NCBI GenBank assembly: GCA_014360805.1
Contig: JACIWU010000007.1
Location: 1-64,000 of the forward strand
Length of the DNA: 64,000 nt
Direction of reading: 5' to 3'
DNA from: Chloroflexota bacterium
GTDB taxonomy: Bacteria; Chloroflexota; Anaerolineae; DTLA01
Shown one piece after another: positions 23,216 to 41,272 of this stretch (position 1 is the first letter of the stretch; every line of letters begins with the position of its first letter). The notes under the pieces are model-generated. The model was not told where the DNA came from. It worked only from the letters and a program-made list of their open reading frames with translations, and ran no database searches. The position numbers and the translations under genes were made by a program.

Positions 23216-26161
23216 ATGCGCAGATTCTGGCGGTTCGCCCTGACACTCACGCTGACGCTGCTGATCGGCGGGCTTCTCTACCAGTACTGGTGGGGACCGA
23301 CGCGCGCGCAGAATCAGCCCACCGCGCAGGAATCCCAGCGCGCCTGGCTCCAGAAGCACGGGCAAATTGTCATCGCCTCCCAGCCCAACAACGCGCCGTT
23401 CTTCTTCCCGTCCGAAGCAGGCATCTACGGCGGGTTTGACCAGGACCTCATCGCCGGCCTCGCGCTGGCGCTGAACGCCGACATCCGCCTCGTCCCCATG
23501 ACGGTGCAGGACGCCCGCGCCGCCCTCTCCATCGGCGAGATAGACGGTATCATGGGGCAAGAGCCGGGACCGGAACTCGCGCCCTTCTACGCCTTCACGC
23601 AGCCCTACCTGAGCAACGCCCAGGCCATCTTCGTTACGGCGGACCGGCTGGACATCCTCAACCTGTCCGACCTGGCGGGCCGCTCCGTCGCCGTCGTGAG
23701 CAACAGCCCAGGCGCGTACCTGGTCCAGTCCAACGCCGCCATCCACGCCGTTCCTGTCCCCAGCATCCAGGAAGGCCTCAACCGCCTCCTCTCTGGCGAG
23801 GTGGAAGCCTTCGTCGGCGACGAACTCTCCAGCCGCAGCCTCATCCAGCGCAACAACCTGGGTGGGCTTGTCAAGGCGGTGGGCGAACCGCTCCGCCGCC
23901 GCGGATACACCATCGCCGTGCGCAAGAACAACACCGAACTCCTGGCCCTGCTCAATTCGGGGCTTGCCGCCCTGGAGAGCACCAACGTCAAGGACAAGAT
24001 CGTTCGGAGATGGTTCGGCGCGGTGTCCACCGACGCCCACACGTTGCCCGACAACTGGGCCCTGTGGGCAGGCGGCGGCATCCTGGCCTTCGCCATCCTG
24101 ATCGCGGTCACCTACTCCTGGGCGCGCTCCATGAGCCGCAAGATGGCCGAACGCACGCACAAGTTGCGCGAATCCGAGCAACGCCAGCGCGTGTTGATTG
24201 AAAACGCCAACGACGCCATCTTCTCCATACACCCCGCCGACACCGGCATCCTGGAGGTCAACCGCAAGGCCGAACAGTTCACCGGCTATCGGCGCGAGGC
24301 CCTCCTGCACATGCGCCTCAGCGACCTCTTCCCCGCCGATTCACGTGAGCGGAGCGTCGGCAGGCTGCAAGAGGTCCTGCTCAACGGGTCCGGCACCTTT
24401 GACGACATGGTGTTCGTCCGCCAGGACGGGACCCGCATAGAGGTGGATGTCAGCGCCAGCGTCATTGAGTTTGACCGCCGCAAGGTGATCCAGATTCTGG
24501 CCCGCGACATCACCGAACGCAAGCAGATGGAGCGCGAACTCCTACGACGCAACCGCAATCTCTCGGCCCTGAACACCATCTCGGCCACCGTGGGCCGGTC
24601 GCTGGAACTGGACGAAATCCTGGACGCGGCGCTGGACAAGGTACTGGACGTGGTAGGCGCCGACATGGGCGCCATCTACCTGTTTGACGAACAGACCGGC
24701 AACCTGGTGCTGCGGGTGTACCGCGGCGAGCCGCCGGTCCTGGCCGTCCAATCCCAAGCCTTCGCCGAACAGAACGGCGGCACCATCATCGCCGCCTCCA
24801 ACGGCAACGTGGCCCAACTGGCCGGCGCCTGGTGGCCGCAGACCTCCCAGCCGCACCTGGGCTCCTTCGTCAGCAGCCAGTTGCGCGCCAAGGACAGGCT
24901 CCTCGGCGTGATGAACGTCGCCAGCCAAAAGCAGCGCTGGTTCACCCAGGAGGACGTGGATTTGCTGACGGCCGTGGCCAACCAGATCAGCGTGGCCATA
25001 GAGAACGCCATGCTGTTCACAGAACTGCGCACCGCCATCGGCGACCTGTTCGTCATCAAGCAGTTCAACGAGAACGTCCTGCAGAGCATGACCAACGGCC
25101 TCATCACGGTGGACCTGTCGGGCAGAATCACCTCCACGAACATCGCCGCCGCGCGCATCATCGGCTACCCGCGCGAGTACCTCCTGGGCAAGCCCGTGCA
25201 CCAGGTGCTGGTCTCGTCCAACGGGTTGGAGAAGATCCTCTCGGAGACGCTCCACAAAGGCGTCCCCTGCTCCAACTACGAGACCGTCATCACCCACCGA
25301 GACGGGCACGAAATCCCTATCGGGCTGAACACTTCGCCGCTCCGCGACAATCAGGGCGTTGTAACGGGGCTTCTGCTCGTCTTCAGCGACCTGAGCGAAA
25401 TCAAGAAGATAGAAGAGGAGAAGCGCAAGTTGGATCGCCTGGCCGACCTGGGCGAAATGGCCGCCGTCCTCGCGCACGAACTGCGCAACCCGCTCGGCTC
25501 CATCAGCGCGGGCATCCAGCATCTGGCCCGCAAGATCACCGACCCTTCGCAACAGCGCGCCGTCCAACTCATCCTGGAAGAGACCGAACGGGTGAATCGC
25601 CTGATTGAGAACGTCCTGATGATCTCGCGCCCACCCACGCTGGACCTGGTTCCCGCCCAGGTGTCGGACATCGTGGAGAACGTCCTCACGCGCTGGCACG
25701 CGAAAGCCGCCGAGAAGCGCATCCGCATCACCAAGAATTACGCGCCCGGCATCGGCTCGTGCCTGGTGGACCCCCTGCGGCTGGACCAGGCGCTCTCCAA
25801 CCTCATCAGCAACGCCCTGGACGCCATGCCCAACGGCGGCGACCTGCGCATCAGCGTGCGCAAGGTGCGCCTGATTCCAGAACCAGCCGCCGCCCTGGAA
25901 GCGGCCGAGAAAGCCCCGCAGCCGGCGATGATCGGCCCCGAGGAGTGGATTCGGATTGAAGTCGCCGACACGGGCATCGGCATCCCGTCGGACAAATTGC
26001 CCAAGATCTTTGAACCGTTCGTAACCACGAAGGCAAAAGGCACAGGCCTGGGCCTGGCCATCACCCGGCGCATCATCACCGACCATCACGGCAACATCTC
26101 GGTGCGCAGCAAGGAAGGCGTCGGAACCGTGTTTACCGTTGACCTGCCAGTAGCCGCATAG
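23216..26161 (+). CDS. Membrane sensor histidine kinase: solute-binding (SBP3)-TM-PAS-GAF-PAS-HisKA-HATPase
   Basis: 981 residues, ATG with AGGAGG upstream. Residues 1-30 are a signal/TM segment. About 45-270 is a periplasmic-type solute-binding domain (VIASQPNNAPFFFPSEAGIY, GGFDQDLIAGLALALNADI, GEIDGIMGQEPG). TM helix about 280-300; PAS about 326-430; GAF about 445-600; second PAS about 615-725. HisKA carries H754 in AVLAHELRNPLGS, and the ATPase has NLISNALDAMPNGG and DTGIGIPSDKLPKIFEPFVT. It probably senses a small amino-acid-like ligand outside the cell plus internal cues, and phosphorylates the NtrC-type regulator encoded 21 bp downstream. Confidence 0.9.
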   Translation: MRRFWRFALTLTLTLLIGGLLYQYWWGPTRAQNQPTAQESQRAWLQKHGQIVIASQPNNAPFFFPSEAGIYGGFDQDLIAGLALALNADIRLVPMTVQDARAALSIGEIDGIMGQEPGPELAPFYAFTQPYLSNAQAIFVTADRLDILNLSDLAGRSVAVVSNSPGAYLVQSNAAIHAVPVPSIQEGLNRLLSGEVEAFVGDELSSRSLIQRNNLGGLVKAVGEPLRRRGYTIAVRKNNTELLALLNSGLAALESTNVKDKIVRRWFGAVSTDAHTLPDNWALWAGGGILAFAILIAVTYSWARSMSRKMAERTHKLRESEQRQRVLIENANDAIFSIHPADTGILEVNRKAEQFTGYRREALLHMRLSDLFPADSRERSVGRLQEVLLNGSGTFDDMVFVRQDGTRIEVDVSASVIEFDRRKVIQILARDITERKQMERELLRRNRNLSALNTISATVGRSLELDEILDAALDKVLDVVGADMGAIYLFDEQTGNLVLRVYRGEPPVLAVQSQAFAEQNGGTIIAASNGNVAQLAGAWWPQTSQPHLGSFVSSQLRAKDRLLGVMNVASQKQRWFTQEDVDLLTAVANQISVAIENAMLFTELRTAIGDLFVIKQFNENVLQSMTNGLITVDLSGRITSTNIAAARIIGYPREYLLGKPVHQVLVSSNGLEKILSETLHKGVPCSNYETVITHRDGHEIPIGLNTSPLRDNQGVVTGLLLVFSDLSEIKKIEEEKRKLDRLADLGEMAAVLAHELRNPLGSISAGIQHLARKITDPSQQRAVQLILEETERVNRLIENVLMISRPPTLDLVPAQVSDIVENVLTRWHAKAAEKRIRITKNYAPGIGSCLVDPLRLDQALSNLISNALDAMPNGGDLRISVRKVRLIPEPAAALEAAEKAPQPAMIGPEEWIRIEVADTGIGIPSDKLPKIFEPFVTTKAKGTGLGLAITRRIITDHHGNISVRSKEGVGTVFTVDLPVAA

Positions 26162-26182: not shown

Positions 26183-27574
26183 ATGGCCGCGACGGTGCTG
26201 ATCATTGATGACGAACAGACGTTGAACCATTTTGTCCAGGAAGACCTGCGAGAGGCCGGGTACGAAAGCCTTGGCGCGCTCACAGGTCAGGAAGGACTGG
26301 ACCTCATCCGCAGCCATGAGGTGGACCTGGTTCTCCTTGACCAGCAACTCCCCGACATGCACGGGCTGGATGTGCTCAAAGTCATCCGCGAGGAGGAGCC
26401 CGACATCCCGGTCATCATCGTAACCGGCCACGGCGAGATAGACTGCGCCGTCCAGGCCATGAAGTTGGGCGCCTACGACTACATGAAGAAGCCCTACAAC
26501 CTGGACACCCTGCTTCTCGTCGCGGCGAAGGCGCTGGAAGCGTCGGCCATGCGCAGGGAGATACGCCGCCTGCGCAGGGAAACGCGCAACCGCTATGCGC
26601 TCACATGGATCGTGGGCGAAACCCCGCAGATGAAGGCCATCGCGCAGTTGCTCATGCGCGTTGCCCCCACCAACGCCAGCGTTCTCCTGCAGGGCGAGAG
26701 CGGCACCGGCAAGGAAGTCGTCGCCAACGCCATCCATCAGCAGAGCAACCGCGCCGAGCGGGCTTTCGTCGCCCTCAACTGCGCGGCCATCCCCGACGCC
26801 CTGCTGGAAAGCGAACTGTTCGGATACGAGCCAGGGGCCTTCACCGGCGCGCACAAACAGAAAAAAGGGCTGATTGAGGCCGCGGATGGCGGGACCCTAT
26901 TCCTGGACGAAATCAGCGGCATGAAGCCCGAAATGCAGACGAAACTGCTCAGGGTGCTGGAAACCCGCACCCTGAGGCGGGTCGGCGGCACCCGCGACAT
27001 CAAGGTGGACATCCGCATCATCGCCGCGTCCAACCAGGACCTGGTCAAGGCCATCCGCGAGGGGACGTTCCGCGAGGACCTGTACTACCGCCTGGGCGTC
27101 GTTACGGTCAACCTGCCCCCCTTGCGCGAGCGCATCGTGGACCTGCCGCTTTTCATCGCCGCGTTCATTGACGACTACAACCAGTCCACCGGACGCAACA
27201 TCACCGGCGTTTCCGCCGATGCCCTCAGGCTGCTCAAAGCCTACTCCTGGCCTGGCAACATCCGCGAACTGCGCAACGTCGTGGAGCGCGCCGTCATCCT
27301 GTGCGATGGCGACGAAATCCGGCCCCAGCACCTGCCCGCCGAGATCGTCGCCTGCCAGCCAAGCCCGATGCCCGCGACGGCCGAAGCGAAAGGCGACAGC
27401 GTCCCGCCCAACGGCCACGGCCTCAATCTCAAGGAAGCGGTCGCCCGCCTTGAGGAAGACCTGATCCGCAGGGCATTGGCCCTCGCCGACGGCAACCAGA
27501 CCAGGGCGGCCAACACGCTGGGTATATCCCGCGACGAGTTGCGATACCGGCTACGCAAATACCAATTGGAGTGA
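26183..27574 (+). CDS. NtrC-family sigma-54-dependent response regulator
   Basis: 463 residues. The receiver domain has acidic residues near the N-terminus (LIIDDEQT) and phospho-acceptor D53 (VLLDQQLPDMHG). The AAA+ domain has Walker A GESGTGKE, the sigma-54-contacting GAFTGA loop (218-223), Walker B DGGTLFLDEIS and the arginine-rich REDLYYRLGVV block. The C-terminal Fis-type helix-turn-helix is ANTLGISRDELRYRLRKYQ. All elements for activating sigma-54 polymerase are present. The best candidate target is the -24/-12 promoter starting 115 bp after its stop codon. Confidence 0.94.
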   Translation: MAATVLIIDDEQTLNHFVQEDLREAGYESLGALTGQEGLDLIRSHEVDLVLLDQQLPDMHGLDVLKVIREEEPDIPVIIVTGHGEIDCAVQAMKLGAYDYMKKPYNLDTLLLVAAKALEASAMRREIRRLRRETRNRYALTWIVGETPQMKAIAQLLMRVAPTNASVLLQGESGTGKEVVANAIHQQSNRAERAFVALNCAAIPDALLESELFGYEPGAFTGAHKQKKGLIEAADGGTLFLDEISGMKPEMQTKLLRVLETRTLRRVGGTRDIKVDIRIIAASNQDLVKAIREGTFREDLYYRLGVVTVNLPPLRERIVDLPLFIAAFIDDYNQSTGRNITGVSADALRLLKAYSWPGNIRELRNVVERAVILCDGDEIRPQHLPAEIVACQPSPMPATAEAKGDSVPPNGHGLNLKEAVARLEEDLIRRALALADGNQTRAANTLGISRDELRYRLRKYQLE

Positions 27575-27632
27575 GCAAGGTCCAGCCCCTTCCCCTCAAC
27601 GCCGGCTATCGGCAACTCGCCCTCTCTACGGT

Positions 27633-27668
27633 CTGACGGGCCATCCCCCACCCCGGATGGCCCGTCAG
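27633..27668 (+). terminator. 14-bp perfect inverted repeat: terminator of the regulator gene or activator-binding site
   Basis: CTGACGGGCCATCC (27633-27646), 8-nt loop, GGATGGCCCGTCAG (27655-27668), then ATTTCCCCC. The stem suits a terminator, but the T-run is poor. The repeat ends only 20 bp before the -24 element. It could equally be a dyad bound by the NtrC-type protein, though such sites usually lie further upstream. Confidence 0.6.
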
Positions 27669-27688
27669 ATTTCCCCCGAACGCTCCCG

Positions 27689-27704
27689 TGGCACAGAACT
27701 TGCA
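27689..27704 (+). promoter_or_regulatory. Sigma-54 (-24/-12) promoter
   Basis: TGGCACAGAACTTGCA matches the sigma-54 consensus TGGCACG-N4-TTGCA at all but one fixed position, with the GG and GC dinucleotides correctly spaced. The predicted start is near 27715, about 85 nt before the small membrane protein gene. It sits between the sigma-54 activator and the NACHT-TPR/protease operon. Confidence 0.87.
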
Positions 27705-27737
27705 ACCTTCCAGGTGCAATGCGCGCAACCGCGAACA

Positions 27738-27757: not shown

Positions 27758-27798
27758 CCTGACAGAATACATGGATTCTTCCAGAAAGGGGCATGCAT

Positions 27799-28110
27799 AT
27801 GATCACCAACTTGCAACTGGGGATGGCGATCACCCTCTTTGTCCTCGGCGTCGCCGCGTGCGTCGCCGGCCTCTGGACAATTCTAGCCCGCGACTATCAG
27901 CAGACGATGCGCACCCTGTCGGCCCAATCGGCCAAAATCGGCACCCGCGCCGCCCTGGAAGACGGCATCGCGCCCATCATTGACGCGGCGGCCCGCCTGG
28001 TGGAAGCCGTGAGCCAACTGATTCGGACCGCTGTTGGAATCGGCGTATTCCTGTGTTGCAGCGGCATCCTCATCTGCCTCGTCGCGTTCTGGATGATCTC
28101 CAAAATCTAG
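27799..28110 (+). CDS. Small two-helix membrane protein, function unknown
   Basis: 103 residues starting MITNLQLGMAITLF. The ATG at 27799 is chosen because AAAGGGG is 7 nt away; the ATG at 27793 is too close. One hydrophobic helix lies at about 8-29, an amphipathic middle at about 30-75 (QQTMRTLSAQSAKIGTRAAL) and a second helix at about 76-99 (GIGVFLCCSGILICLVAFWM). No known family recognised. It is the first gene after the sigma-54 promoter and lies 10 bp before the NACHT-TPR gene. It could anchor that protein at the membrane or act as a membrane-active effector; both are guesses. Confidence 0.75.
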   Translation: MITNLQLGMAITLFVLGVAACVAGLWTILARDYQQTMRTLSAQSAKIGTRAALEDGIAPIIDAAARLVEAVSQLIRTAVGIGVFLCCSGILICLVAFWMISKI

Positions 28111-28120
28111 GGGGTGAACC

Positions 28121-31100
28121 GTGGCTGCCAAGAACTCTTCCAAAGCCGCTTTCGCTCAAGGCCCCGCCAACGACTACCTGAAGGGCCTGCTGCACGATGA
28201 GGCCCTTGCCCGCGCATGGCAGTTGTACCTACAGCCTGTCTCGGCCATTCGCGCCGCTACCCAAGGGCAGGCCGACGACGTGGCGAGCCTCGTCGCGCTC
28301 TGGCCCTTGACGCTGGTGCTTGGCGAGCCGCTGAGCGGCAAGAGCACCCTGCTGGCGTACCTGGCCTGCGAAGCCGCCAACCGCAACCTCCTCGCCGCGC
28401 CAGATGAGGGGGCATTGTACCCTGTCCCCATCGTCCTGGACGCCGAGGCATGCCCTGCCGACGCCTCGCTGAACGACATCCTCGCCCAGGCGCTGGAGAA
28501 GCGCAATGTCAACCCCGCCGACGACGAAACTCGCCGCTGGCTGGACGGCGCGTCCCTCCTGTTCCTGGTGGACCAGGTGGACCGCGCCGGTGCCGCGCCC
28601 GGCCCCAAGTGGCTCCGCGAGATTTGCAACGCCGCGCAGCCCAACGGAAGGGTGAAGGCAATCTTCGCCTCGCGCCCGGACACCTGGCCGGGGCCTGCGT
28701 GGGGCTTGCCCGACGTCCCGACCGTCCGCCTGGGCCGCCTGTCCGACGAGGACATCACCGCCATCCTCTCGTCCAGGCTCACCGGCGAGCAAAGTCGGCG
28801 GATCAACCGCATCCTCCGCCGCGACCGCGTGCTGTGGGACATCGTGCACCTGCCCTTGTTCCTGTCGGTCGTGCTGGAACTGCTGGAGACCCTTACGCAG
28901 GTGCCCTGGTGGAACCTGGCGCAGATCATCCTGGCCGCATTGTCGCGCATCCTGGCCGCAAAGGGCAACGCATCCCCTAACCCCGAGCAGGCCCTGCGTG
29001 CGTTGGGTCTGGTGGCCCTGGCCGAAAGCATGGAGCGCCAGGGAGCCGACGCCATCAGCGCCCACCAGGCCAACGAAATCCTCCTGCAAAACGCCACGGG
29101 CCAGAAGAGCGCCGCGCTGGCCGTCGCCAAACAACTCGGCATCCTCGTGGAGACGCCCGACGCCAACGTGCGCTTTCTCCGGCCCGAGGTGCGCCGCTAC
29201 CTGTGCGCGTTGGCCCTCCGCGACCGCCTCGGCGAGGCTAAGGAGATGGCCCTGGCGCGCGAGAACCCCGCCCTCTGGGAGATGTACGTCTCCCTGCATC
29301 CCGAGCCAGAGCAGTCCATCGTGCGGCTCTTGCAGCACGGCGGGCCTTCCCTGGCGAGTCTGGCCGCGAGAGCCTTGCGCCAGAACTTGCTCCCCGACCG
29401 CTTGGCAAAGGCCGTGCGCCCCCTCAAGGACGCGGGCATTCCGCGCGAGACCCTGCGCGCCCTCGGCACAGCCATCGTGGACGCAGGCGAGGCCGAATCG
29501 GGCGTCCACCTCCTGCGCTCGCTTCTGCCGCAGGAGCCCACAACCACAGACGAGGCGCAGACCCCGCCTCCCACGGCTGACCTGGACCATCCGGAGCGAC
29601 TCCTGGACACCGCCCGACTCCACTACCACTTGGACAGGGGCATCATCCTCCGCCTGATGAACGATTCCGAGCGCGCCCAGGCCGAGTTGCAGCGCGCCCA
29701 GGACGAGGCGTCGGCGGTCTATGCCGTCATCTGCGCGGAACAGGGGCTTATCCACCTGGCCGAGGGCCGCGACGAAGAAGCCCTGTCCCAATTCCGCCTC
29801 GCCCTTGCGCGCCAGCCCAACGTCCCCGAGCACCACTACTGGGCGGGCGTGGCCCTCAACCGCCTGGGCAGGCCCGGCGAAGCCATTGAGCGCTTGCAGA
29901 AGGCCAGTGCCCTCCTGCCCAACAGCCCCGAAATCCTCGCCGAGTTGGGCCGCGCCTACCAGCAGCGCGGCTGGCTAGGAGAAGCCCTGGCCGCCTACCA
30001 GCAAGCCGTCCAGATGGCGCCCCAGGATGGCCGATATCTCCGTCTTGCCGCCCTCGTCATGGCCGAGCAGGGCCTGCGCGACGAGGCCATGGAGCGCATG
30101 CAACAGGCCATCGCGCTCCAGCCCGACCGCGCCGAGTGGTACGACGACCTGGGCACGCTCCTGGCCGACGCAGGCGACTGGCAAGGGGCGCGCGCCCGAT
30201 TCCGCGAAGCCGTGGAACTGTCGGGGGGAGACGCCGAATACGTGCGGCATCTGGCCCAAGCCGAGGCCCACCTGGGCCGCCTCGCCGTCGCCGTTGAGTT
30301 GTACCGCCGCGCCCTGGAAGCCAGGCCCGGCCAGGCGCAATGGATATCCGAACTCGGCGACCTCCTGGAGCGGCAAGGCGAATACGCCCAGGCCATCAAC
30401 GCCTACCGCCAGGCGTCGGTCATTGACCCAGGCGAGCCACGCTATCGCCTGGCCACTGCCAGGCTCTTCCAGAAACTGGGCCAGCCCGACGACGCCATGA
30501 ACGAGGTGCAGACCGTCCTGCGCGAGAATCCAAACGTCGCCGACGCGCATCGGGCCGCAGGCAACATCCACGAGGCGAAAGGCGACCTGAACGCCGCGCT
30601 GGAATCTTACCGCGCCGCCGCTCGGCTCACACCCACCGACGCCGAAATCCTTGTGGACGTGGCCCGCGTGGAGACCGCCCTGGGCCTGCTGGACGAGGCG
30701 CAGGCCACCCTGGACAAAGCCATTGACCTCGACCCAAGCGCCGGCGCCGCCTACGTCCAACTGGGCATCCTGCTGGAAAAGGGCGGCCACCTCGCCCAGG
30801 CGCGCAGCGTGTACGAGAAGGCCGCGCAACTCCTGCCGGGGACCACCGAGCCTATCTTGCGGCTCGGCGCCGTTCTGCACAAACTCGGCGAGAGCGCCCG
30901 CGCCGCCGCGCTCCTCTCGGATGCCGTGGCGACAGCCCCCAGCGACCCGCGCGCCCAATTCCAGATCGCCGAGGTCTGCGCCGACATGGGCGACCTGGAA
31001 CGCGCCCTCGGCCACTACCGGCAGGCCAGCGCCCTGGCGCCGTCCGAATGGCTCTACCGCCAACGCATCGCCGCCACCGCTGCCAAACTGGGGCGGCTGA

Positions 31101-34100
31101 ACGAGGCCCGCGAGGAAACGCTCGCGGCGCTAAAACTCGCCCCCAACCAGCCTGAACTTCACGCCCAACTGGCCGAAATCTATGCCCTGGGCAACGACCT
31201 CCCCAAGGCGGTGGACGCCCTCCAGAAGGCCGTGGCCCTCGCGCCCTCGGCTCTGCCCCACCGCATTCGGCTCTCCGAAATGCAGCGGCAGGCGGGCGAC
31301 CTGGCAGGCGCCAAGGCTACGCTGACGCAGGCGCTCCAGATCGCGCCCGACCAGGCGTCCGTACACTACGAGATGGGCATCCTGCACCAGATGGATCGCA
31401 ACTGGGCCGATGCGCTCCGCGAGTTTAGCCAGGCCGCGGCGCTGGATCCCATGCAGGCCCGCTACCACGCGGCCATGGGCGATGTCCTGATACAGGCCGG
31501 CGACCTGAACGCCGCCCAGGCAGCGTTCCGGAGAACGCTGGAACTCGCGCCCAACCACGCCGAGGCGCTCCTGGCCCTGGCCCACATCCTGGCGCAGCAA
31601 GGGCAGGAGAAACTCGCCTTGAGCCACTGCAAGCGCGCCGTGGAACTGCGGCCCAACTGGGCGCAGGCGCAGACGCTCTACGGCCGACTGTGCCGCGCCC
31701 TGGGCATGCGCGACCAGGCGCGCCACGCGCTCGCCGCGGCCCTCTCCGCAGACCCGGGCCTGGCCGACGCCCACCACGAGATGGGCCTCCTGTACCAGGA
31801 CGGCGGTCAGATAGACGCCGCCATCGCTTCCCTGCGTAGGGCCGTGGAATTGGCGCCCGACCGTCCCGCCTATCGGCGCTCCCTGGCCCTGGCCCAGAGC
31901 CAGAACGCCGACCCCGATTCGGCCATCGCCATCCTGGAGTCGGCCATCAGCCTCATGCCCGACGACGACGCGCTCCATGCGCAACTCGGCGCAGCCTTCG
32001 CGCGCAAGGGCTGGATTGGCGAAGCGATCAAGCAGTATCGGCGGGCCTTGGACATCGCCCCCGACAACGCCCACTACCATAGCCGCCTGGGATCCCTGTT
32101 GGCGCAGAACGGCCAGACGGGCGAGGCCTACGAAATGTTGCGTCGGGCGGCGGCGCTGGAACCCGGCGACCCGTCCATCCTGTGCGACCTGGGCGACCTC
32201 TACGCCGCCCAGGGCCTGGCCCAGGAAGCCGAACGCGCCTACACCCGCGCCGCCGAAGTCTGCGGCAGCGACGCGCTCACCCTCCAGCGCGTGGGCCTAT
32301 CGCTCCACAAACTGGGCAGGGCCAACGAGGCGCTGCACCTGCTGAAGCAAGCATCGCAGGCGGGCGACCCTGCCAGCAGCATCGCCCATCGCACCGCCGG
32401 CTCCATCCTGGCCGAGCAAGGGCGCCTACAAGAGGCCCTGGAAGAACTTCAGGAAGCCTTGCGCCTGGATCCGGGCGATTCCGTCAACTGGGGGATGCTG
32501 GCCCGGGTGCAATGGCAATTGGGCCAGGCGCTGGACGCGGAGAAGAGCCTCAAGACGGCCATTGACCGCGACGGCACGGTCGCCGAGCACTACGCATTGC
32601 TGGCGCAAATCTACGAGAGCCAGGGGCGCATGGGCGAGGCCCTGGAAGCCTACCAGAACGCGGCGGCCATCGCGCCCGAAGACCCCGACGCCCAGCGCGG
32701 GCTTGCCGCGGCGCTGCGCAAACAAGGCCGCGCCGCCGAAGCCATCCAGGCGCTGGAGCGTGTCCTGCAGGCGAACCCCGATGACGCCGAGGCCCACGCG
32801 CAAATGGCTGAACTGCACGAATCGGTGGGCGCCGTGGACAGGGCCGTCCCCGAATGGGAGCGGGCAACCGCACTCAATCCTGCAAGCCAGACCTACGCCC
32901 TGGCGCTGGGCCGCGCCCTGCTCCGCGCCCACAGGACGGCCCAAGCCCTCCCCGTGCTGGAGAAAGCCGTGCGCCTAGACCCCGCCCAGCCGGAAGCGCA
33001 CTATCTGTTGGGACTGGCGCACGAGGCAAAAGGCGAGGATGCCGCTGCCACCGCCGCCCTCAAGCGGGCGTACCGGCTGGCCCCCTCGGAGCCGCGCTAC
33101 GCCCTCGCGTTGGCGGGCCGCGTCCGCCGCGACCTGTCCAAGGCGCGCCAGGCGCAAACCCTGGGCCTCAAGCCCTCGGACGTGGACACGGAGGCCCTGT
33201 CCGAAAGCCTGAACGCCCTGACCCAACTCGCGGAGGCCCAGCCCAACAATCCCGACGCCAAGGCCGAACTGGGGCTGTTGCTGGCAGAAACCGGCAAGAC
33301 CGACGAGGCGCTGGCCCTGCTCCAGCGGGCGGCTTCGCTCTCGCCGACGCACGCCCTGCTCCGCCTGGCCCTCGGCGTCGTCAAGCGTCGCCTGGGCCAG
33401 CCCGCGGATGCCTACGAGGAACTGCGCGCGGCCGAGAGCATGGGCCTGGACAGCGACGAACTGCACTACCACCTGGGCATGGCGCTCCTGGAGCAGAGCA
33501 AACCCGAGCCAGCCGCGTTGCACCTTTCCAGGGCCGTCCAACAACGGCCGCAGGAGGCCGCCTACCACCACGCGCTCAGTCGGGCCTTGCAGGCCGCCGG
33601 CCGCCCCGCCGAAGCCAGGGATGCCCTCCAGACCGCCTTGAGCCTGAACGCAGACGTGGCCCCGTGGCAGGCCGAATTGGGCGAGATGCTCATGAACGAG
33701 GCGCAGTACCAGTCCGCGCTGGAATGCCTGCTCAAGGCCATCAAACTCCAGCCCGGCACGACCGACTACTATCGCCTGGCCGCCAAAGCCTACGCGGGTA
33801 TGGGCCGCCACTCGGCCGCAGCCGCACTGCTGGAGAAAGCCGTGAGCCTGGAGCCGAAGGCCAGCGACGACCTGGCCGCCCTGGGCGAGATGTACCTGAA
33901 GGCCAAACAGCCCAAGCAGGCCCGAATCGCCCTGCAGAAGGCCATTGAGGCCGCGCCAGACCGGCCCGAATACTACCTCACCCTCGCCGCCGTCCTACAG
34001 GACGAAGCCAGGCCCGATGACGCCATCAACGTGCTGAAGGAAGCCGTTACCCGCCGAGGCGACTACGCGCCTGTTCACGATGCCCTGGGCAATCTGTACG

Positions 34101-34750
34101 CGGCAGCCGGACGCTGGAACGAAGCCCTCGGCCACTTCCGGCGGGCGCTGTCGCTGGAACCCAAGAACGCGCGCTACTGCCTCCATGTGGGGCTGGCCTT
34201 CCAGCATCTGGGCCAGTACCACGAGGCCACCCAGTGCCTGGAAGCGGCCATCAACCTCGCCCCAGGCGACGCCGAGCCATACGTGGCCCTGGGCGACATC
34301 TTCCGCGAACAGGATCGCTTTGACGAGGCCCTGCAAGCCTATCAGCAGGCCATCGTCCTGGAGCCGAAACACGCCGAGGCGCACCGTCGCTTGGGCCTAC
34401 TGTCCGCGCAACTGGGGTACAAGGAAAAAGCCACGGCCCACTTCCAGAAACTGGTGGAACTCCTGCCCTCCGACGCCGAGGCCCAATACCTGCTCGGCAC
34501 GGCGCACGAACAGCAAGGCCACATTGAGGAGGCCCAGCGCGCCTACCAGCGGGCCATCCAGATCAACGGACAGAAGGCCGAGTACTTTGTCAGGGCTGGA
34601 CTCCTGTACAAGCGCACCAAGGAGTACGGCAAAGCCGCCGAGATGTTCCGGCACGCCGTCCGCCTGGAGCCAGGCAACGGCGAAGCCTACAAGCAACTCG
34701 CCACCGTCAGCGCCCTGGGGTTCATCAGCAAGGAGCCTGGCGCCGCCTGA
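28121..34750 (+). CDS. Giant NACHT-like STAND NTPase with a very long TPR array
   Basis: 2209 residues from a GTG at 28121 with GGGGTG upstream. Residues ~60-330 form a NACHT-like NTPase: Walker A GEPLSGKST (68-76), Walker B LLFLVDQVD (about 147-155), and an FASRPDTW block that fits the sensor segment of NACHT proteins. A helical region (about 330-500) follows. From about 505 to the end, TPR units of ~34 residues run almost without interruption, roughly fifty by length. Repeats show the usual W/L-G-Y-A-P pattern, e.g. AYVQLGILLEKGGHLAQARS. No signal peptide or TM helix, so cytoplasmic. STAND NTPases of this layout act as ligand-triggered switches that oligomerise. The next gene encodes a TPR protease, a likely partner. 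Confidence 0.88.
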   Translation: MAAKNSSKAAFAQGPANDYLKGLLHDEALARAWQLYLQPVSAIRAATQGQADDVASLVALWPLTLVLGEPLSGKSTLLAYLACEAANRNLLAAPDEGALYPVPIVLDAEACPADASLNDILAQALEKRNVNPADDETRRWLDGASLLFLVDQVDRAGAAPGPKWLREICNAAQPNGRVKAIFASRPDTWPGPAWGLPDVPTVRLGRLSDEDITAILSSRLTGEQSRRINRILRRDRVLWDIVHLPLFLSVVLELLETLTQVPWWNLAQIILAALSRILAAKGNASPNPEQALRALGLVALAESMERQGADAISAHQANEILLQNATGQKSAALAVAKQLGILVETPDANVRFLRPEVRRYLCALALRDRLGEAKEMALARENPALWEMYVSLHPEPEQSIVRLLQHGGPSLASLAARALRQNLLPDRLAKAVRPLKDAGIPRETLRALGTAIVDAGEAESGVHLLRSLLPQEPTTTDEAQTPPPTADLDHPERLLDTARLHYHLDRGIILRLMNDSERAQAELQRAQDEASAVYAVICAEQGLIHLAEGRDEEALSQFRLALARQPNVPEHHYWAGVALNRLGRPGEAIERLQKASALLPNSPEILAELGRAYQQRGWLGEALAAYQQAVQMAPQDGRYLRLAALVMAEQGLRDEAMERMQQAIALQPDRAEWYDDLGTLLADAGDWQGARARFREAVELSGGDAEYVRHLAQAEAHLGRLAVAVELYRRALEARPGQAQWISELGDLLERQGEYAQAINAYRQASVIDPGEPRYRLATARLFQKLGQPDDAMNEVQTVLRENPNVADAHRAAGNIHEAKGDLNAALESYRAAARLTPTDAEILVDVARVETALGLLDEAQATLDKAIDLDPSAGAAYVQLGILLEKGGHLAQARSVYEKAAQLLPGTTEPILRLGAVLHKLGESARAAALLSDAVATAPSDPRAQFQIAEVCADMGDLERALGHYRQASALAPSEWLYRQRIAATAAKLGRLNEAREETLAALKLAPNQPELHAQLAEIYALGNDLPKAVDALQKAVALAPSALPHRIRLSEMQRQAGDLAGAKATLTQALQIAPDQASVHYEMGILHQMDRNWADALREFSQAAALDPMQARYHAAMGDVLIQAGDLNAAQAAFRRTLELAPNHAEALLALAHILAQQGQEKLALSHCKRAVELRPNWAQAQTLYGRLCRALGMRDQARHALAAALSADPGLADAHHEMGLLYQDGGQIDAAIASLRRAVELAPDRPAYRRSLALAQSQNADPDSAIAILESAISLMPDDDALHAQLGAAFARKGWIGEAIKQYRRALDIAPDNAHYHSRLGSLLAQNGQTGEAYEMLRRAAALEPGDPSILCDLGDLYAAQGLAQEAERAYTRAAEVCGSDALTLQRVGLSLHKLGRANEALHLLKQASQAGDPASSIAHRTAGSILAEQGRLQEALEELQEALRLDPGDSVNWGMLARVQWQLGQALDAEKSLKTAIDRDGTVAEHYALLAQIYESQGRMGEALEAYQNAAAIAPEDPDAQRGLAAALRKQGRAAEAIQALERVLQANPDDAEAHAQMAELHESVGAVDRAVPEWERATALNPASQTYALALGRALLRAHRTAQALPVLEKAVRLDPAQPEAHYLLGLAHEAKGEDAAATAALKRAYRLAPSEPRYALALAGRVRRDLSKARQAQTLGLKPSDVDTEALSESLNALTQLAEAQPNNPDAKAELGLLLAETGKTDEALALLQRAASLSPTHALLRLALGVVKRRLGQPADAYEELRAAESMGLDSDELHYHLGMALLEQSKPEPAALHLSRAVQQRPQEAAYHHALSRALQAAGRPAEARDALQTALSLNADVAPWQAELGEMLMNEAQYQSALECLLKAIKLQPGTTDYYRLAAKAYAGMGRHSAAAALLEKAVSLEPKASDDLAALGEMYLKAKQPKQARIALQKAIEAAPDRPEYYLTLAAVLQDEARPDDAINVLKEAVTRRGDYAPVHDALGNLYAAAGRWNEALGHFRRALSLEPKNARYCLHVGLAFQHLGQYHEATQCLEAAINLAPGDAEPYVALGDIFREQDRFDEALQAYQQAIVLEPKHAEAHRRLGLLSAQLGYKEKATAHFQKLVELLPSDAEAQYLLGTAHEQQGHIEEAQRAYQRAIQINGQKAEYFVRAGLLYKRTKEYGKAAEMFRHAVRLEPGNGEAYKQLATVSALGFISKEPGAA

Positions 34751-34820
34751 GGCGCATAGCCGCAGAGCGAACCCCAGCACAACATAGCACACGCACTTTC
34801 AGACGCGCGGGAGTGGAAAC

Positions 34821-37331
34821 GTGAAAGGGAAAGAGATTTGCATAGCGGCCGAATCGAGCCTGAAGCAAGGCCAATTCCGCGAGGCGCTGGACAGGGCCGA
34901 AGGACTCCTTCGGCAGTATCCGGGGCACCTGCGCGGGATGTTCCTTGCGGCCGTCGCCCGAATCCGCCTGGGCGAGTCGCAGCACGCCCGCCTGCTCCTG
35001 GACGCCGCCCTCGGCCTGGATCCCGAGAACGCCGAATGCCGCCTGGCGCTTGCCGAGGCACTCCACACGCTGGGTGAGGCCGAGCAGTCCACCCGCCAGT
35101 TTGTCCGCGCCTTCGCCCTGTGCCCCTCCGACGCCGACCAGAAACTCGTGCTGGGCAGCCGCCTGCCTGCCGTCCTCAACCTGAAGTCGGCGGGCGAGGC
35201 CACCCCTCTCGGCAAGGCCGTTCGCTTCAAACTCTCGGTCAATTGGGGAGGCGCTCTGCCCGAGTTTCAGGCCATCACGCGCTCGGACCCATTCCTGCCC
35301 GAAGCGTGGCTCGGGCTTGCGGAAACCCTGTGGCAATTGGAGAGGCTGGACGAGGCCATGTCCACGCTGGACCAAATCGCCGCCGCATGGCCCAATTTCG
35401 TCAAGGCGGCGCTGATTCGCGGCGACATCCTGATACGCCGAGGCCAGGCCGAAGCGGGCACGGCATCCCTGCACGCCGCCCAAGCCCTGGACCCTAGCGG
35501 CATCGTCGCCGAACGCGCCTTTGGCGCGCAGGGGCAGTACCGGCTGCTTTGGGCCGACCCATCCGACCTGCCCGATGCGGCCTCTGACGCCCCCGCGCAG
35601 CGTGGCGCGAAACTTCGGGGCGAGCAGGTAGTCGCGGCAGGTACCGAAGCCGCCCCGCTGCCCCAAAGCCCCACGCTCCGAGACATCCAGGCCGAGATGG
35701 CGCGGCTCACCGATCACCTCATGGCCACCGACGACTCCCAGCCACCAGAGCGACTGTCGGCGATTTCGGCCCTCGCCATCCTCACGTGCCGAACGACGCT
35801 GGAAGCGAAGTTCGGTTCCGATTTCACCCAGCGCCTGGGCGAGGCCGTGCACCGGCTTGTAAAAGCCATCGGGCCGGCGGACAATCGGGCCATCCACTTC
35901 GTGGCCCTGGACGACCCCGAACAAATGACGGGCTTGGGCGCAGTTGCAGCCCAAAATCCCGCCGACCCCGCCCACATCAAGGCGGCGGTGGATTCCCTGG
36001 CGGATGGTCTCCTGACCCAGGGCCAGGACATGCGCCACGTGCTCATCCTGGGCGGCGACGACATCGTGCCATTCTACCGCACGGCGAACCCAACCGACGA
36101 CCAGGACGAGGACATCTACACCGACGCGCCCTACGCGGCCCGCAACGGCTCGTCGCTGCTCCCCACGCGGGCGGTGGGCCGCCTGCCCGACTGCGACGAC
36201 CCCGACGCCTTCCTGCGCCTGATAGAGCACGCCGCAAAAGCCCATGCGGATTCGGAGCGCAACGCCACTGCAAAGGGGCTGAAAGCCCTCCGCCGAATCT
36301 GGCAGCGCGGAGACGACGCCCCCTCGCCGGAGGACAGTTTCGGATACACCGCCAGCGTATGGAAGGAAGCATCGCGGGCCGTCTTTGAGGTCATCGGCCA
36401 GACGCGGCACCTGCGCATGTCGCCGCCCATTTCGCGGCAGGAGTTCTCGGCCCTGGCCCAGAGCAAGCCCCGCCTCGCCTACTTCAACTTGCACGGCGTG
36501 GAGGGGGAACCGGCGTGGTACGGCCAGCGCGACCCCGATTTCGCCGCCGACTACCCGCTGTTCCCCGTCGCCCTGCTGCCGGATGACATCGCCAGCGCTT
36601 GGGCCGCAGGCGCCACCGTCCTCACCGAGGCCTGCTACGGCGCCGACGTGCTCGCCCGCACGCACCACGACTCCATCGCGCTGCGGTTCCTGCACGAGGG
36701 CGCGCGCGCCGTCGTAGGCTCCACGCGCCTGGCCTATGGATCGCTCACGCCGCCCCTGGCCGGCGCCGACCTGCTGGGGCGGCTGTTCTGGCTCGCCGTT
36801 ACAAGCGGCATGCCCATCGGTCAGGCCCTCCAGTGGGCCAAACTCTCCTTCGCCAACGACCTGATGAACCGCCAGGGCTACCTGGACAGCGAAGACCAGA
36901 AGACGCTCCTGACCTTCAACCTGTTCGGCGACCCCACGCTAACCGTGGAGGGGCAGAAGCCCATCTGGGACAAACTGCCGCAGGCCGCGACCGTCCGCAA
37001 ATCCCTGGCCGTCTGCTGCCAGCACAGCGCGCATCGTGTCGCCGCCGACGTCCCCGACGACCTGGTGCAGCAGGTGCAATCGCAGATCAGCCACCGCCTG
37101 CCCTGGCTTGCGCCCAAGCAGGTGCGCGTTACCCAGCAGGTGCTGTGCAACGGCCAGTGCACCGGCAGTTGCCATTCCGGCGCGGCATCCCACAGCGCGA
37201 CGGCCATCGCCAACCGGTACGTATTCACCGTCAGCGGCGCGCCCGAAGGCGATGGCCTGCGCGGGCCACTCGTCGCGAAGATCACCGTGGATCACAAGGG
37301 CACCATTCTGAAGATGGCCGTGTCCAAATAG
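34821..37331 (+). CDS. TPR protein with C-terminal gingipain/caspase-like (peptidase C25) domain
   Basis: 836 residues from a GTG at 34821 with GGGAG upstream. About 1-230 is TPR-like (SSLKQGQFREALDRAEGLLR, LDAALGLDPENAECRLALAE). About 340-710 matches the clan CD C25 fold. It has HVLILGGDDIVPFYRT, TRAVGRLPDCDDPDAF, a catalytic His in AYFNLHGVEG (H558), a catalytic Cys in TEACYGAD (C605), and the closing TFNLFGDPTLTV strand. The C-terminal ~120 residues are cysteine-rich (VCCQHS, LCNGQCTGSCHSG) and unassigned. No signal peptide, unlike secreted gingipains, so a cytoplasmic regulatory protease is likely. CHAT, a related fold, is an alternative label. The gene is 70 bp after the NACHT-TPR gene. 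Confidence 0.8.
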   Translation: MKGKEICIAAESSLKQGQFREALDRAEGLLRQYPGHLRGMFLAAVARIRLGESQHARLLLDAALGLDPENAECRLALAEALHTLGEAEQSTRQFVRAFALCPSDADQKLVLGSRLPAVLNLKSAGEATPLGKAVRFKLSVNWGGALPEFQAITRSDPFLPEAWLGLAETLWQLERLDEAMSTLDQIAAAWPNFVKAALIRGDILIRRGQAEAGTASLHAAQALDPSGIVAERAFGAQGQYRLLWADPSDLPDAASDAPAQRGAKLRGEQVVAAGTEAAPLPQSPTLRDIQAEMARLTDHLMATDDSQPPERLSAISALAILTCRTTLEAKFGSDFTQRLGEAVHRLVKAIGPADNRAIHFVALDDPEQMTGLGAVAAQNPADPAHIKAAVDSLADGLLTQGQDMRHVLILGGDDIVPFYRTANPTDDQDEDIYTDAPYAARNGSSLLPTRAVGRLPDCDDPDAFLRLIEHAAKAHADSERNATAKGLKALRRIWQRGDDAPSPEDSFGYTASVWKEASRAVFEVIGQTRHLRMSPPISRQEFSALAQSKPRLAYFNLHGVEGEPAWYGQRDPDFAADYPLFPVALLPDDIASAWAAGATVLTEACYGADVLARTHHDSIALRFLHEGARAVVGSTRLAYGSLTPPLAGADLLGRLFWLAVTSGMPIGQALQWAKLSFANDLMNRQGYLDSEDQKTLLTFNLFGDPTLTVEGQKPIWDKLPQAATVRKSLAVCCQHSAHRVAADVPDDLVQQVQSQISHRLPWLAPKQVRVTQQVLCNGQCTGSCHSGAASHSATAIANRYVFTVSGAPEGDGLRGPLVAKITVDHKGTILKMAVSK

Positions 37332-37343
37332 CAGGAGGAACCC

Positions 37344-38729
37344 GTGGACATCAAAGCATACTGGCGACCCAAAGGCGATACCGGCATCGGCTTTCACTAC
37401 TACCCGAACGTCTTTCACTACAGCAAGGCCGACCTGGACCTGTGGCTGCCCGAACTGAAGGCGATGGGCGCGTCGTGGCTGGTGCTCCTGTCGGAACTGG
37501 AGAACCCCATCCCGTCGTTCTTCATCAAGGGCTTGATCCAGGCCGACATTGAGCCGCTCATTCGGGTTTACACGCCCACGGTCCGCCCCATAGACCAGAA
37601 GGCGCTCCGTTCGCTGCTGGACACCTATCGGGCGCTTGGCGTCCACTACGTCCACGTGTACAACGAGCCTAACCTCACGAACGAATGGGACTGGGCCGAA
37701 TGGGCCAGGCCGGCGCTGGTGGATCGGTTCATGGAGATGCTCATCCCCTGCCTGGAAACGATGAAGGCCGTCGGCATGTACCCCGTGTTCACGCCCCTGA
37801 GCCCAGGCGGCAACTACTGGGACACAGTCTTCCTGAAGACGGCCCTGGACTACATCGTGCTCAAGGGCAAAGAGGACCTCTTTGACACCATGGCCGTCGG
37901 AATGCACAACTACGTATCCAACAAGCCGCTGGACTGGGGCAAGGGCGGCCCCGCCCGCTGGCCCAACGCCCGTCCCTACTATTGCCCCGAGGGCAGCCAG
38001 GACCACGTGGGGTTCTACCTGTTTGAGTGGTACGACGCCATCATCCGCGCCCGTGTCGGGCGGTCGCTGCCCCTCGTCTGCTACGAGAACGGGCCTATCG
38101 TCGGCGCGCACGACCATCCCAAGTACCCGCCGGTGGACGAGGCGGCCCATGCCCGCATCGCCGTGGAGATGACGCGGATGCTGATGGACAACGTCGTGCC
38201 CGACTACGTGTTCAACAACGCCTTCTGGCTGCTCGCCAATAGCCACGGCAGCCCCTTTGAGGCGCACGCCTGGTACAAGGAGAGCGGTGCGCGCCTGCCC
38301 GCAGTCCAGGCGATGAAAGACCTGCCGAAACACGCCCGCCAGACCGCCCAGCCGCACCCTGCCCCCGACCCGGGCGCGCCCCCCCAGGAGCATCCCTTGT
38401 ACCATTACGTGCTCTGCCCCGTCTGGGAATGGGGCGTCTCGGAATGGTATTGGCGAATGCTGGCTAACTATGTGAAGGCTTTCAAGCCTGTCTGCGGTTT
38501 CAGCGTGGACGAGGCGGCCCTCGCCCGCTACGTAACCATCATCGGCAAGCCCCCCGGCGTCTCGTCCGGCGCCGAGGAAAAACTCCGAGCCGCCGGCTGC
38601 CGTGTGGAGCGGATCGCGGGGGCCGATGCCGCCGAAACCCAGAAGATTCTGGACCAAATGGCAAGTCAGGGCCGACGCTTCCTCAACTTTGAGGCAAGCC
38701 CGGCGTCTTCGTCGCACGAGGGGGAATAG
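37344..38729 (+). CDS. Glycoside-hydrolase-like (clan GH-A) protein with a CWB2-like C-terminal module
   Basis: 461 residues, GTG start behind AGGAGGA, 12 bp after the protease. The N-terminal ~330 residues look like a TIM-barrel glycosidase: acid/base candidate E108 in YNEPNLTNEW and nucleophile candidate E248 in CYENGPIVG. N-terminal DTGIGFHYYPN is shared with the gene at 44207. After a proline-rich linker, residues ~385-445 (YVTIIGKPPGVSS, LRAAGCRVERIAGADAAET) resemble one cell-wall-binding repeat 2. No signal peptide is visible, which is odd for a wall-binding protein. Substrate unknown, possibly glycan strands of the wall, given the neighbours. Confidence 0.7.
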   Translation: MDIKAYWRPKGDTGIGFHYYPNVFHYSKADLDLWLPELKAMGASWLVLLSELENPIPSFFIKGLIQADIEPLIRVYTPTVRPIDQKALRSLLDTYRALGVHYVHVYNEPNLTNEWDWAEWARPALVDRFMEMLIPCLETMKAVGMYPVFTPLSPGGNYWDTVFLKTALDYIVLKGKEDLFDTMAVGMHNYVSNKPLDWGKGGPARWPNARPYYCPEGSQDHVGFYLFEWYDAIIRARVGRSLPLVCYENGPIVGAHDHPKYPPVDEAAHARIAVEMTRMLMDNVVPDYVFNNAFWLLANSHGSPFEAHAWYKESGARLPAVQAMKDLPKHARQTAQPHPAPDPGAPPQEHPLYHYVLCPVWEWGVSEWYWRMLANYVKAFKPVCGFSVDEAALARYVTIIGKPPGVSSGAEEKLRAAGCRVERIAGADAAETQKILDQMASQGRRFLNFEASPASSSHEGE

Positions 38730-38732
38730 GCC

Positions 38733-41255
38733 ATGAGACGCTATGCGCGGATCGTAGTCTGCGCCCTCAGCCTCCTGGCTCTGGCGCTGTCCGTGGCCGG
38801 TTGCGCAGGAGGCGCGCAGCAAAACGTACAGCCCCAGGTGCAGGGCACGGCCACCTGGACCCAGTCCACGGTGTCGGATTTCAAGCAAGGCGTCCTGCAA
38901 CGTCTCCAGGTTGAGCGCCAGGGGGACGGCGAATTGACCCTCGCCCGCGATACCCAGGGCCAGTACGAGACGGCGGGCGTGTACACATCCCCGCCCTTCG
39001 CACCAGGCGCGCCCTTCTCTCTGGCCGTCTGGCAGTGGGAGGCCGACATCCCCGCCGGCACAACCCTGACGCTCGCCGTCCGCACCAGCGCCGACGGCAA
39101 AGCGTGGACGGACTGGCAGGAACTGCCCCCCGACGAAGACGTGCGATCCGCCACCGGCGACTGGCCGGGCCACATGTGGTTCGCCCAGGGCGCGCGGTAC
39201 GCCCAATACCGGCTCCGGTTTACATCCAGCGATGGCAGAGCCACGCCGGTCCTCGCCTCGGTAACCTGGCATTTCGCCAACACCGCGCCTGGCCCCACCG
39301 TCCAGGAAGCGATGCAGATGGTCATCCCGCAGGGCGAGGGGCCGGGCGTGCAGCGTCCCGCGATCATCCCGCGCCGCGGCTGGGGAGCCGACGAGAGCCT
39401 CATGACCTGGGAGCCGAAGTACGAGAAGCCCGTGAAGATCATCATCCACCACACGGCGACCCCCAACGATCCGAAACAGGACCCCGCCGCCACCGTCCGC
39501 GCCGTGTACTACTACCACGCCGTAACCCGCGGCTGGGGCGACATCGGGTACAACTACCTTATTGACCGCCTGGGCAACATCTACGAAGGGCGCAAGGGGG
39601 GCGAAGGCGTCGTCGGGGGCCACGACTACGGCTTCAACGAAGGCTCTGTGGGCATCTCCCTCATCGGCGACTTCCAGTCCGAGCCGCCCACCGAAGCGAT
39701 GATGAACGCGCTGGCCCGCCTGGTGGCCTGGGTCTGCGACCGCTACGGCATTGACCCCACCGGCCGCAGCATCTTCCGCGACCTGGACCTGCCCAACATT
39801 GCTGGCCACCGCGAGACCAAATCCACCACCTGCCCGGGCGATCAGGTGCAGAACCGCCTGCCGGCCCTGCGCGAACGCGTCGCCGAGATCATTCACCAGC
39901 AGGCCCCCTCCGTGCGGTTCGTGTCGCCGCTGCCCGACCGCGCCCTGTCCGGTCTGCAGACCGTAACTGTCCAAGGGGGAGTCGCCACCTCCGACATCAC
40001 CCTGTACCTGGACGGCAAGCCGGTGCTGCGGAAAATCGGCACCGCGCTGGAGTACAAATGGGATACAACCGCCACGGCGGACGGCGATCACCTGCTAAAG
40101 GCTGTGGCGCACAACGCGCGCGGCGAAGAGGCGTCTCAATCCATGATGGTGCTCGTGGACAACACTCCCCCGCAGGTTACGCTGCTCATCAACAACGGCG
40201 CCCCCTACGCGACGCAGCAGACCATCACCTTGACGCTGGAGGTGCTGGACGTGGGAAGCGGCGTGGAAGCCATGCAGGTGGCCCTGGGGGAGAACTTGGC
40301 AGCCGCGCCCGCCGAACCCTACCGGCGCGAAGTGGTGCTCACGCTCCCCGACGAGCCTGGACTTCGCACCTACTCGGCGGTCGTAACGGACAAGGCCGGC
40401 CTCACATCCAAGCCATCTGTCGCGCAGATATACTACGACCCCAACCCGCCCGGCGGGTGGACGGAAGCGGCGCTGTCCAGCACAGGCGAAATCGCTGTGC
40501 GCGTGCGCGATGCCGAAAGCGGACTTGAGCCGGCCAGCGCCTTTGCCGCCTGGTCCACCGACGGCGGCGCCACGTGGAGCGTGTGGCAAGACGTCAGCGT
40601 AACGCCCGAAGGACAGGAGGCCACGCTATACGCCCGCGTGCCCGAAGCCGCCACCTCGGTGCGATTCCGCATTGCCGACATGGCCGGCAATCTCGCCGAA
40701 AGTCCGGTGTACCTTCTGCCTTGCGGCGAATGCCCGCCCAAGCCGACGCCCGAACCCGCGCCCGCCCCGGACATCGCCGCGCCCGACCTCGTCGTCAGCG
40801 CGCTGGAAATCTTCCCGCCACAACCCGAAGCGGGCGAACCCACCCTCTTCCGAGTGCGGGTGCGCAATCAAGGCGATGGCCCCGCGCCCGGATGTTGGGT
40901 GCAACTGTACATAGACCCCAGCGTAATACCTTATGTCAACTCCGTCGCCAGCACGTTGGGCGTAGGCCTGCTGTGGTACGTCCCCGACCTGGCCCCCGGC
41001 GAAGAGATCACCCTCCTCTCGTCGGAACCGTACCCGCAATTCGGCAACTATGCGGGGAGTCTGGCAAGCGGTATGCACAGCATCTATGTGCTGGCGGACG
41101 CTTACCACACCGAAGGCGACACGGGGCTGGTAGCCGAGTCGGACGAGCAGAACAACCTGTTCGGCCCGGTGCAGGTACAGATGAAAGGCTCCAGTCCGTT
41201 CCGCTGGTCAACCCTAGAAGAGTGGCTGAGCCGCTGGCTCCACTGGAAACCTTAG
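38733..41255 (+). CDS. PGRP-type N-acetylmuramoyl-L-alanine amidase lipoprotein
   Basis: 840 residues. Lipoprotein signal with lipobox LSVAGC (Cys24), so anchored outside the membrane. An N-terminal beta domain (about 40-190) precedes the amidase_2/PGRP domain (about 210-390): IIIHHTATPND (H239/H240), GWGDIGYNYLIDRLGNIYEG, VGISLIGDF, and zinc ligands H359 (AGHRET) and C367 (TTCPGDQ). Ig-like domains (about 400-660) and a CARDB-like adhesion domain (DLVVSALEIFPPQPEAGEPT) follow. It should cleave the bond between muramic acid and L-alanine of peptidoglycan. It starts 3 bp after the preceding gene and precedes ftsZ, pointing to a wall-cutting role linked to division. Confidence 0.88.
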   Translation: MRRYARIVVCALSLLALALSVAGCAGGAQQNVQPQVQGTATWTQSTVSDFKQGVLQRLQVERQGDGELTLARDTQGQYETAGVYTSPPFAPGAPFSLAVWQWEADIPAGTTLTLAVRTSADGKAWTDWQELPPDEDVRSATGDWPGHMWFAQGARYAQYRLRFTSSDGRATPVLASVTWHFANTAPGPTVQEAMQMVIPQGEGPGVQRPAIIPRRGWGADESLMTWEPKYEKPVKIIIHHTATPNDPKQDPAATVRAVYYYHAVTRGWGDIGYNYLIDRLGNIYEGRKGGEGVVGGHDYGFNEGSVGISLIGDFQSEPPTEAMMNALARLVAWVCDRYGIDPTGRSIFRDLDLPNIAGHRETKSTTCPGDQVQNRLPALRERVAEIIHQQAPSVRFVSPLPDRALSGLQTVTVQGGVATSDITLYLDGKPVLRKIGTALEYKWDTTATADGDHLLKAVAHNARGEEASQSMMVLVDNTPPQVTLLINNGAPYATQQTITLTLEVLDVGSGVEAMQVALGENLAAAPAEPYRREVVLTLPDEPGLRTYSAVVTDKAGLTSKPSVAQIYYDPNPPGGWTEAALSSTGEIAVRVRDAESGLEPASAFAAWSTDGGATWSVWQDVSVTPEGQEATLYARVPEAATSVRFRIADMAGNLAESPVYLLPCGECPPKPTPEPAPAPDIAAPDLVVSALEIFPPQPEAGEPTLFRVRVRNQGDGPAPGCWVQLYIDPSVIPYVNSVASTLGVGLLWYVPDLAPGEEITLLSSEPYPQFGNYAGSLASGMHSIYVLADAYHTEGDTGLVAESDEQNNLFGPVQVQMKGSSPFRWSTLEEWLSRWLHWKP

Positions 41256-41272
41256 CACGCATGGAGGCTGGA

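Follow-up and report, generated by a model that had tools for sequence, protein, structure and literature searches.

A conserved -24/-12 element beside rpoN and an NtrC-type activator gene in Anaerolineae: a probable sigma-54 promoter for an envelope and division operon containing a second FtsZ

Results

Gene content of the locus

The window analysed here, that is the whole stretch of 64,000 nucleotides from a Chloroflexota bacterium, contains a group of regulatory genes followed on the same strand by a long series of closely spaced genes (Table 1). The product of rpoN has the activator-interacting, core-binding and DNA-binding domains of sigma-54 as well as the RpoN box ARRTVAKYR, which is conserved among relatives. 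Only one PF04552 match was found in the whole genome, indicating that this is the sole rpoN copy. It is followed by the gene of a membrane histidine kinase, whose start we place at MRRFWRF, and then by the gene of an NtrC-type protein combining a receiver, an AAA+ domain and a Fis-type HTH. The GAFTGA loop of this activator is also present in relatives, and no other protein of the genome gives a strong PF00158 match. One cluster holds the sole rpoN, a sensor kinase and the sole true sigma-54 activator.

Table 1. Features of the locus, with positions in the window
Feature	Position	Strand	Basis or remark
rpoN (sigma-54), 468 aa	21784..23190	+	Pfam AID, CBD, DBD; TIGR02395 above cut-off
Membrane histidine kinase	23216..26161	+	Pfam: extracytoplasmic SBP_bac_3, PAS, GAF, PAS, HisKA, HATPase
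NtrC-type response regulator / sigma-54 activator	26183..27574	+	PF00072, PF00158 with GAFTGA, PF02954
Perfect 15-bp inverted repeat TCTGACGGGCCATCC-N8-GGATGGCCCGTCAGA	27632..27669		~60-nt block unchanged in three congeneric species
Predicted sigma-54 promoter TGGCACAGAACTTGCA	27689..27704	+	Consensus match, conservation, matrix score
S105 (103 aa, two transmembrane helices), first operon gene	27799..28110	+	ORF may start at 27793
2209-aa protein, N-terminal NACHT NTPase then long TPR array	28121..34750	+	Domain matches
836-aa TPR and clan-CD (C25/gingipain-type) cysteine protease	34821..37331	+	His558/Cys605 in NLHG/EACYG motifs
461-aa protein, DTGIGFHYYP... start	37344..38729	+	No Pfam family; also precedes ftsZ2 in relatives
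Lipoprotein-like N-acetylmuramoyl-L-alanine amidase	38733..41255	+	Amidase_2, CARDB, Big_7
ftsZ2, second FtsZ	41273..42490	+	PF00091, T4 GGGTGTG, T7 NLDFAD intact, C-terminal DVPAFLRR peptide

The first gene of the series encodes a small protein, here called S105. We tried to assign it to a known family and rejected this, as no Pfam, NCBIfam or PADLOC match exceeded the cut-off and its structure model, a helical hairpin, gave no significant or informative fold match. The counterparts of the NACHT/TPR giant in relatives have about 1700-2280 residues. In the next protein, the predicted dyad H558 and C605 is invariant in 16 sequences and places it in Peptidase C25/clan CD; its structure model (mean pLDDT 75) gave fold matches, with low identity, to gingipain K, separase and Csx29. 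The 461-aa protein is, at a guess, a TIM-barrel glycosidase-like protein (the TIM-like gene below). Its start is of the same type as that of the product of 44207-45772 (DTGIGFHWFP), this part being without Pfam family in both, and the second protein has a SpoIID domain. Further downstream, at 48825-54872, lies the gene of a giant surface protein, in which LVIVD, cohesin, dockerin, CBM96 and SdrD_B domains were recognised.

From S105 to ftsZ2 all the genes are on the same strand and separated by 3 to ~70 nt. We detected no terminator-like site on the + strand between the promoter and 42490, and a sigma-70-like site lies right after ftsZ2 (42492-42521), so that the operon probably extends over 27793-42490. 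We infer its continuity across 14.7 kb from the gaps and the strand.

The -24/-12 element and the inverted repeat

The 16-mer TGGCACAGAACTTGCA, separated by 115 nt from the end of the activator gene, has no mismatch to TGGCACRNNNNTTGCW and has the correct GG-N10-GC spacing. A sequence-only reading of this DNA had proposed it as a sigma-54 promoter deviating from the consensus at one fixed position. This deviation does not exist with respect to TGGCACRNNNNTTGCW and applies only to a stricter consensus, one that demands G at position 7 or a preceding Y. The same reading had noticed no comparable second site and, indeed, all the other sites of the 64-kb window have at least two mismatches to TGGCACRNNNNTTGCW. 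A matrix derived from the cassette sites of other genera gives the element a score of 23.1 and the runner-up in the window one of 14.6. Many equally good matches inside coding sequence had been named as an outcome that would refute the promoter; the whole 3.24-Mb genome contains five exact matches to TGGCACRNNNNTTGCW as compared with none to a reversed control pattern, so that this outcome did not arise. Given the usual distance from -12 to +1, a transcript start is expected near 27714-27715, in agreement with the position near 27715 predicted in the sequence-only reading.

The inverted repeat just upstream is predicted to form a very stable hairpin (z = -6.6). The ends of its arms vary among three congeners, and in these three species the block of about 60 nt is more conserved than its flanks. 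It is a candidate binding site for the activator and/or a candidate terminator hairpin of the rpoN-ntrC operon. The repeat was also considered as a general activator site and rejected as such, since its words are missing upstream of the other genus-conserved sites, except for one 7-mer (L109/L111).

Conservation of the element and of the gene order

We scanned species genomes with an S105 alignment and obtained 34 S105 loci; Levilinea saccharolytica KIBI-1 and Bellilinea caldifistulae GOMI-1, both type strains, are among the carriers. Of the 34 records, all but two are labelled as Chloroflexota or its classes or orders, the exceptions being labelled "bacterium" and Desulfobulbaceae. The latter (L117, DDXK01000076.1, Desulfobulbaceae UBA2262) has an S105 91% identical to the one described here and is probably a misnamed or mixed bin. 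The order that recurs in Anaerolineae is rpoN, kinase, ntrC, the -24/-12 element, the two-helix S105, the NACHT/TPR giant and the TPR/clan-CD protease; throughout the class, this cassette occurs as one copy with conserved synteny. In many loci a receiver-only gene is found between the promoter and S105; it is absent from this genus.

We observed that 33 of the 34 loci have an element with 0-1 mismatch within 1 kb upstream of S105, which is exact in 21 of them. Shuffles of the same stretches gave expected numbers of 0.28 (0-1 mismatch) and 0.005 (exact), GG and GC being mandatory in the shuffles as in the scan, and the opposite strand gave none. In two congeneric genomes the layout is kept and the 16-mer is identical, with a diverged leader. 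The element at 27689 thus has GG and GC separated by 10 nt, is conserved in place before orthologous genes and occurs in a genome with rpoN. Its function as a promoter is strongly supported by this conservation, and the proposed tie to the adjacent activator gene is supported by the related loci.

Among 100 relatives, S105 is clear in 14 and 13 of these have a full rpoN; six have rpoN only, one S105 only and 80 neither (Fisher p = 5e-11, uncorrected for kinship and thus overstated, the relatives not being independent). In one relative (G038), rpoN is on a separate contig and yet an exact site is found 124 bp before S105. In the 16 other S105 genomes tested for strong activator domains, we found one in 13 and two in three. 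In four relatives, rpoN itself is also directly preceded by a site, which suggests feedback. Taken together, sequence and conservation demonstrate the machinery, the element, the gene order and the recurrence of a second FtsZ, described below. The rpoN gene in the same cluster, the content of the operon and this second FtsZ go beyond what had been noticed in the sequence-only reading.

A second FtsZ in S105 genomes

The window copy of FtsZ has the tubulin-fold GTPase domain (PF00091) and the GGGTGTG motif; PF12327 was matched in the copy of locus L133. A housekeeping FtsZ is encoded on another contig (C2) of this genome. At least two FtsZ were found in 23 of 27 further S105 genomes, and 11 genomes have ftsZ2 on the contig of S105, at a distance of 8.6-16 kb downstream. 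In the 100 relatives, two FtsZ/tubulin matches were present in 12/14 genomes with S105 versus 13/86 without it; second FtsZ genes are also found in genomes without S105.

In a phylogenetic tree, a single branch separates the FtsZ2 copies from housekeeping FtsZ (SH-aLRT 97), a clean split that is partly by construction as the labels came from linkage, T7 loop and score; the divergent copies L219-L221 form long branches of unsure placement. In these three loci (family f37 and kin), the FtsZ-like gene located ~8.8 kb downstream from S105 has lost the GGGTGTG loop and encodes a far-diverged cytoskeletal protein. Housekeeping FtsZ keeps the T7 loop N(L/V)DFADV. In cassette FtsZ2 it is often NVDFAN, NVDFAH, NLDFAS or NLNLMH, with loss of the aspartate required for hydrolysis. 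FtsZ2 of this genus and of family f25 retains this aspartate, and the idea of a hydrolysis-dead protein is therefore not applicable to the present species.

Six genomes (Bellilinea group, Levilinea group and G117) have ftsZ2 and S105 on different contigs; in Bellilinea, more than 40 kb of contig extend on either side of ftsZ2. We examined these six together with two genomes in which ftsZ2 is linked and has an internal site (G119, G120). All eight have their own -24/-12 element before the TIM-like gene and/or ftsZ2, five of these being exact, with 0.08 expected. The housekeeping ftsZ is preceded by such an element in only 1/17 cases. The own elements in 8/8 genomes are the strongest argument that ftsZ2 is itself a target of sigma-54. 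In relative L224 the same amidase gene as in the window directly precedes ftsZ2. The interval from the TIM-like gene to ftsZ2 (L224:13798-17312) has a DivIVA-like coiled coil (below cut-off), MraZ and the amidase, that is a second division-type gene set.

Other sigma-54 sites and size of the regulon

Few sites are conserved in the genus. One precedes, in three species, the gene of a secreted 1905-aa PKD/cohesin/dockerin protein. Another, exact in two species, precedes the gene of a membrane-anchored LysM/CBM96 protein, whose orthologue in this genome has the variant TGGCATGGAATTTGCA about 74 nt before the gene (C38:6433). A third, shared by three species, precedes an aminopeptidase-P-like gene at a very short distance from its start codon.

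It could be proposed from the first two of these that sigma-54 governs cell-surface genes broadly and that ftsZ2 is one among many targets, all the more as sigma-54 was termed a controller of the bacterial exterior in a survey (PMC3162934). However, genomes of the genus have only 4-5 exact sites each, a number near background in the congeners, which argues for a small regulon, and the cassette is the only target that we found conserved across the class. We consider a broad envelope regulon as the less probable of the two views, though one with a real share of the likelihood; a large regulon in this genus was rejected on the basis of these counts. A dedicated regulon, as the sequence-only reading had suggested, is supported by the single rpoN, the single activator and the few genus-conserved sites, mostly located before envelope proteins.

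A different situation was observed in a sister lineage, family f29, where three genomes (G030, G063 and G090) have 32-61 exact -24/-12 matches per genome versus 0-3 for the reversed pattern, together with a full rpoN and no S105. G030 has one activator domain. The sigma-54 regulon of this lineage may be far larger, perhaps with a single activator in control. Four other genomes (G020, G066, G079 and G016) have 9-17 exact matches, above the reversed control, and no rpoN match; this excess may be due to repeats, to base composition or to a sigma factor that was missed.

Discussion

From these observations, it is very probable that the 27689-27704 element functions as a sigma-54 promoter and that a self-contained sigma-54 regulon for an envelope/division operon, extending across the class, centres on it. 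The whole has the appearance of a minimal regulon in which sigma-54 is reserved for an envelope/division programme.

Another view accepts the promoter and limits its targets to S105 and the NACHT-TPR and protease genes, which would form a STAND-type system of conflict or programmed death, ftsZ2 being a separately regulated neighbour. A NACHT-TPR protein, a caspase-like protease and a small protein with two transmembrane helices do resemble STAND/protease systems, the model of the protease has gingipain, separase and Csx29 among its matches, and conflict systems of multicellular bacteria have been reported to include rare FtsZ-type components (PMC7159879). However, ftsZ2 has its own -24/-12 sites even when located elsewhere, and the cassette is neither patchy nor hypervariable in the class. 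PADLOC yielded TPR-type matches only, and a known defence system was rejected on this ground. We regard this second view as unlikely, more so than the broad envelope regulon. Finally, although sites this good arise a few times per genome (the reversed pattern has at most four matches in congeners), a chance match in an intergenic gap is refuted by the occupation of the orthologous positions in 33/34 loci versus 0.28 expected, and its probability is negligible.

In the mechanism that we propose for the dedicated regulon, an envelope signal would lead the sensor kinase to phosphorylate NtrC, which would bind upstream, perhaps at the inverted repeat, and remodel the sigma-54 polymerase at 27689. 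Sigma-54 polymerase opens no promoter without an activator, so that the operon would be strictly off or on. The products of the operon would then act at the membrane, where FtsZ2 polymers, with S105, the NACHT-TPR scaffold, the protease and the amidase, may drive, block or redirect septation; hydrolysis by FtsZ2 is probably slow or absent in many lineages. Such a change in septation could, for example, fragment multicellular filaments under stress. The gene content suggests a possible role in alternative septation, filament fragmentation or stress response. We thus propose tentatively, at somewhat less than even confidence, that Anaerolineae possess an all-or-none, sigma-54-switched second division system, in which an FtsZ2 that is GTPase-dead in many lineages would act with S105 under NACHT-TPR and caspase-like protease control in developmental septation such as filament fragmentation.

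Chlamydia and Borrelia have single-activator regulons in which sigma-54 and an NtrC-type two-component system act on -24/-12 promoters. One sigma-54, one activator, promoters of this type and a small regulon are common to these bacteria and to the present system. In contrast, here in Chloroflexota rpoN, the kinase, the activator and the first target operon are in one locus, and the target includes a second FtsZ, the NACHT-TPR giant and a clan-CD protease. FtsZ1 and FtsZ2 are known from archaea. Two FtsZ were also described in Atribacterota RT761 (PMC7736352). In these cases, as here, a divergent paralogue exists beside a housekeeping FtsZ; the one described here differs in being tied to a sigma-54 promoter and a cassette and in the absence of the T7 catalytic Asp from many copies. 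As for the protease, its predicted fold and His/Cys motif are like those of gingipain, separase and Csx29 (Craspase), but identity is ~12%, the TPRs are N-terminal, no signal peptide is evident and no CRISPR genes were seen adjoining.

Sigma-54 promoters and NtrC activators are already known, as is their presence in some Chloroflexi, recorded by the survey mentioned above (PMC3162934), in the available text of which we found no Chloroflexi target or link with FtsZ. The main text of a multi-phylum regulon study of 2025 (PMC12316311) names neither Chloroflexota nor Anaerolineae. Searches of the open-licence literature turned up neither the cassette nor S105, nor any second FtsZ under sigma-54 control, and an earlier report may exist elsewhere.

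With this locus, sigma-54 in Chloroflexota gains a concrete target. The locus shows how a bacterium can retain this factor when there is essentially a single activator to use it and, in filamentous bacteria, it connects sigma-54 with a caspase-like protease and a second FtsZ. As the cultured type strains Bellilinea caldifistulae GOMI-1 and Levilinea saccharolytica KIBI-1 carry the system, regulated or alternative division becomes testable in this little-studied class.
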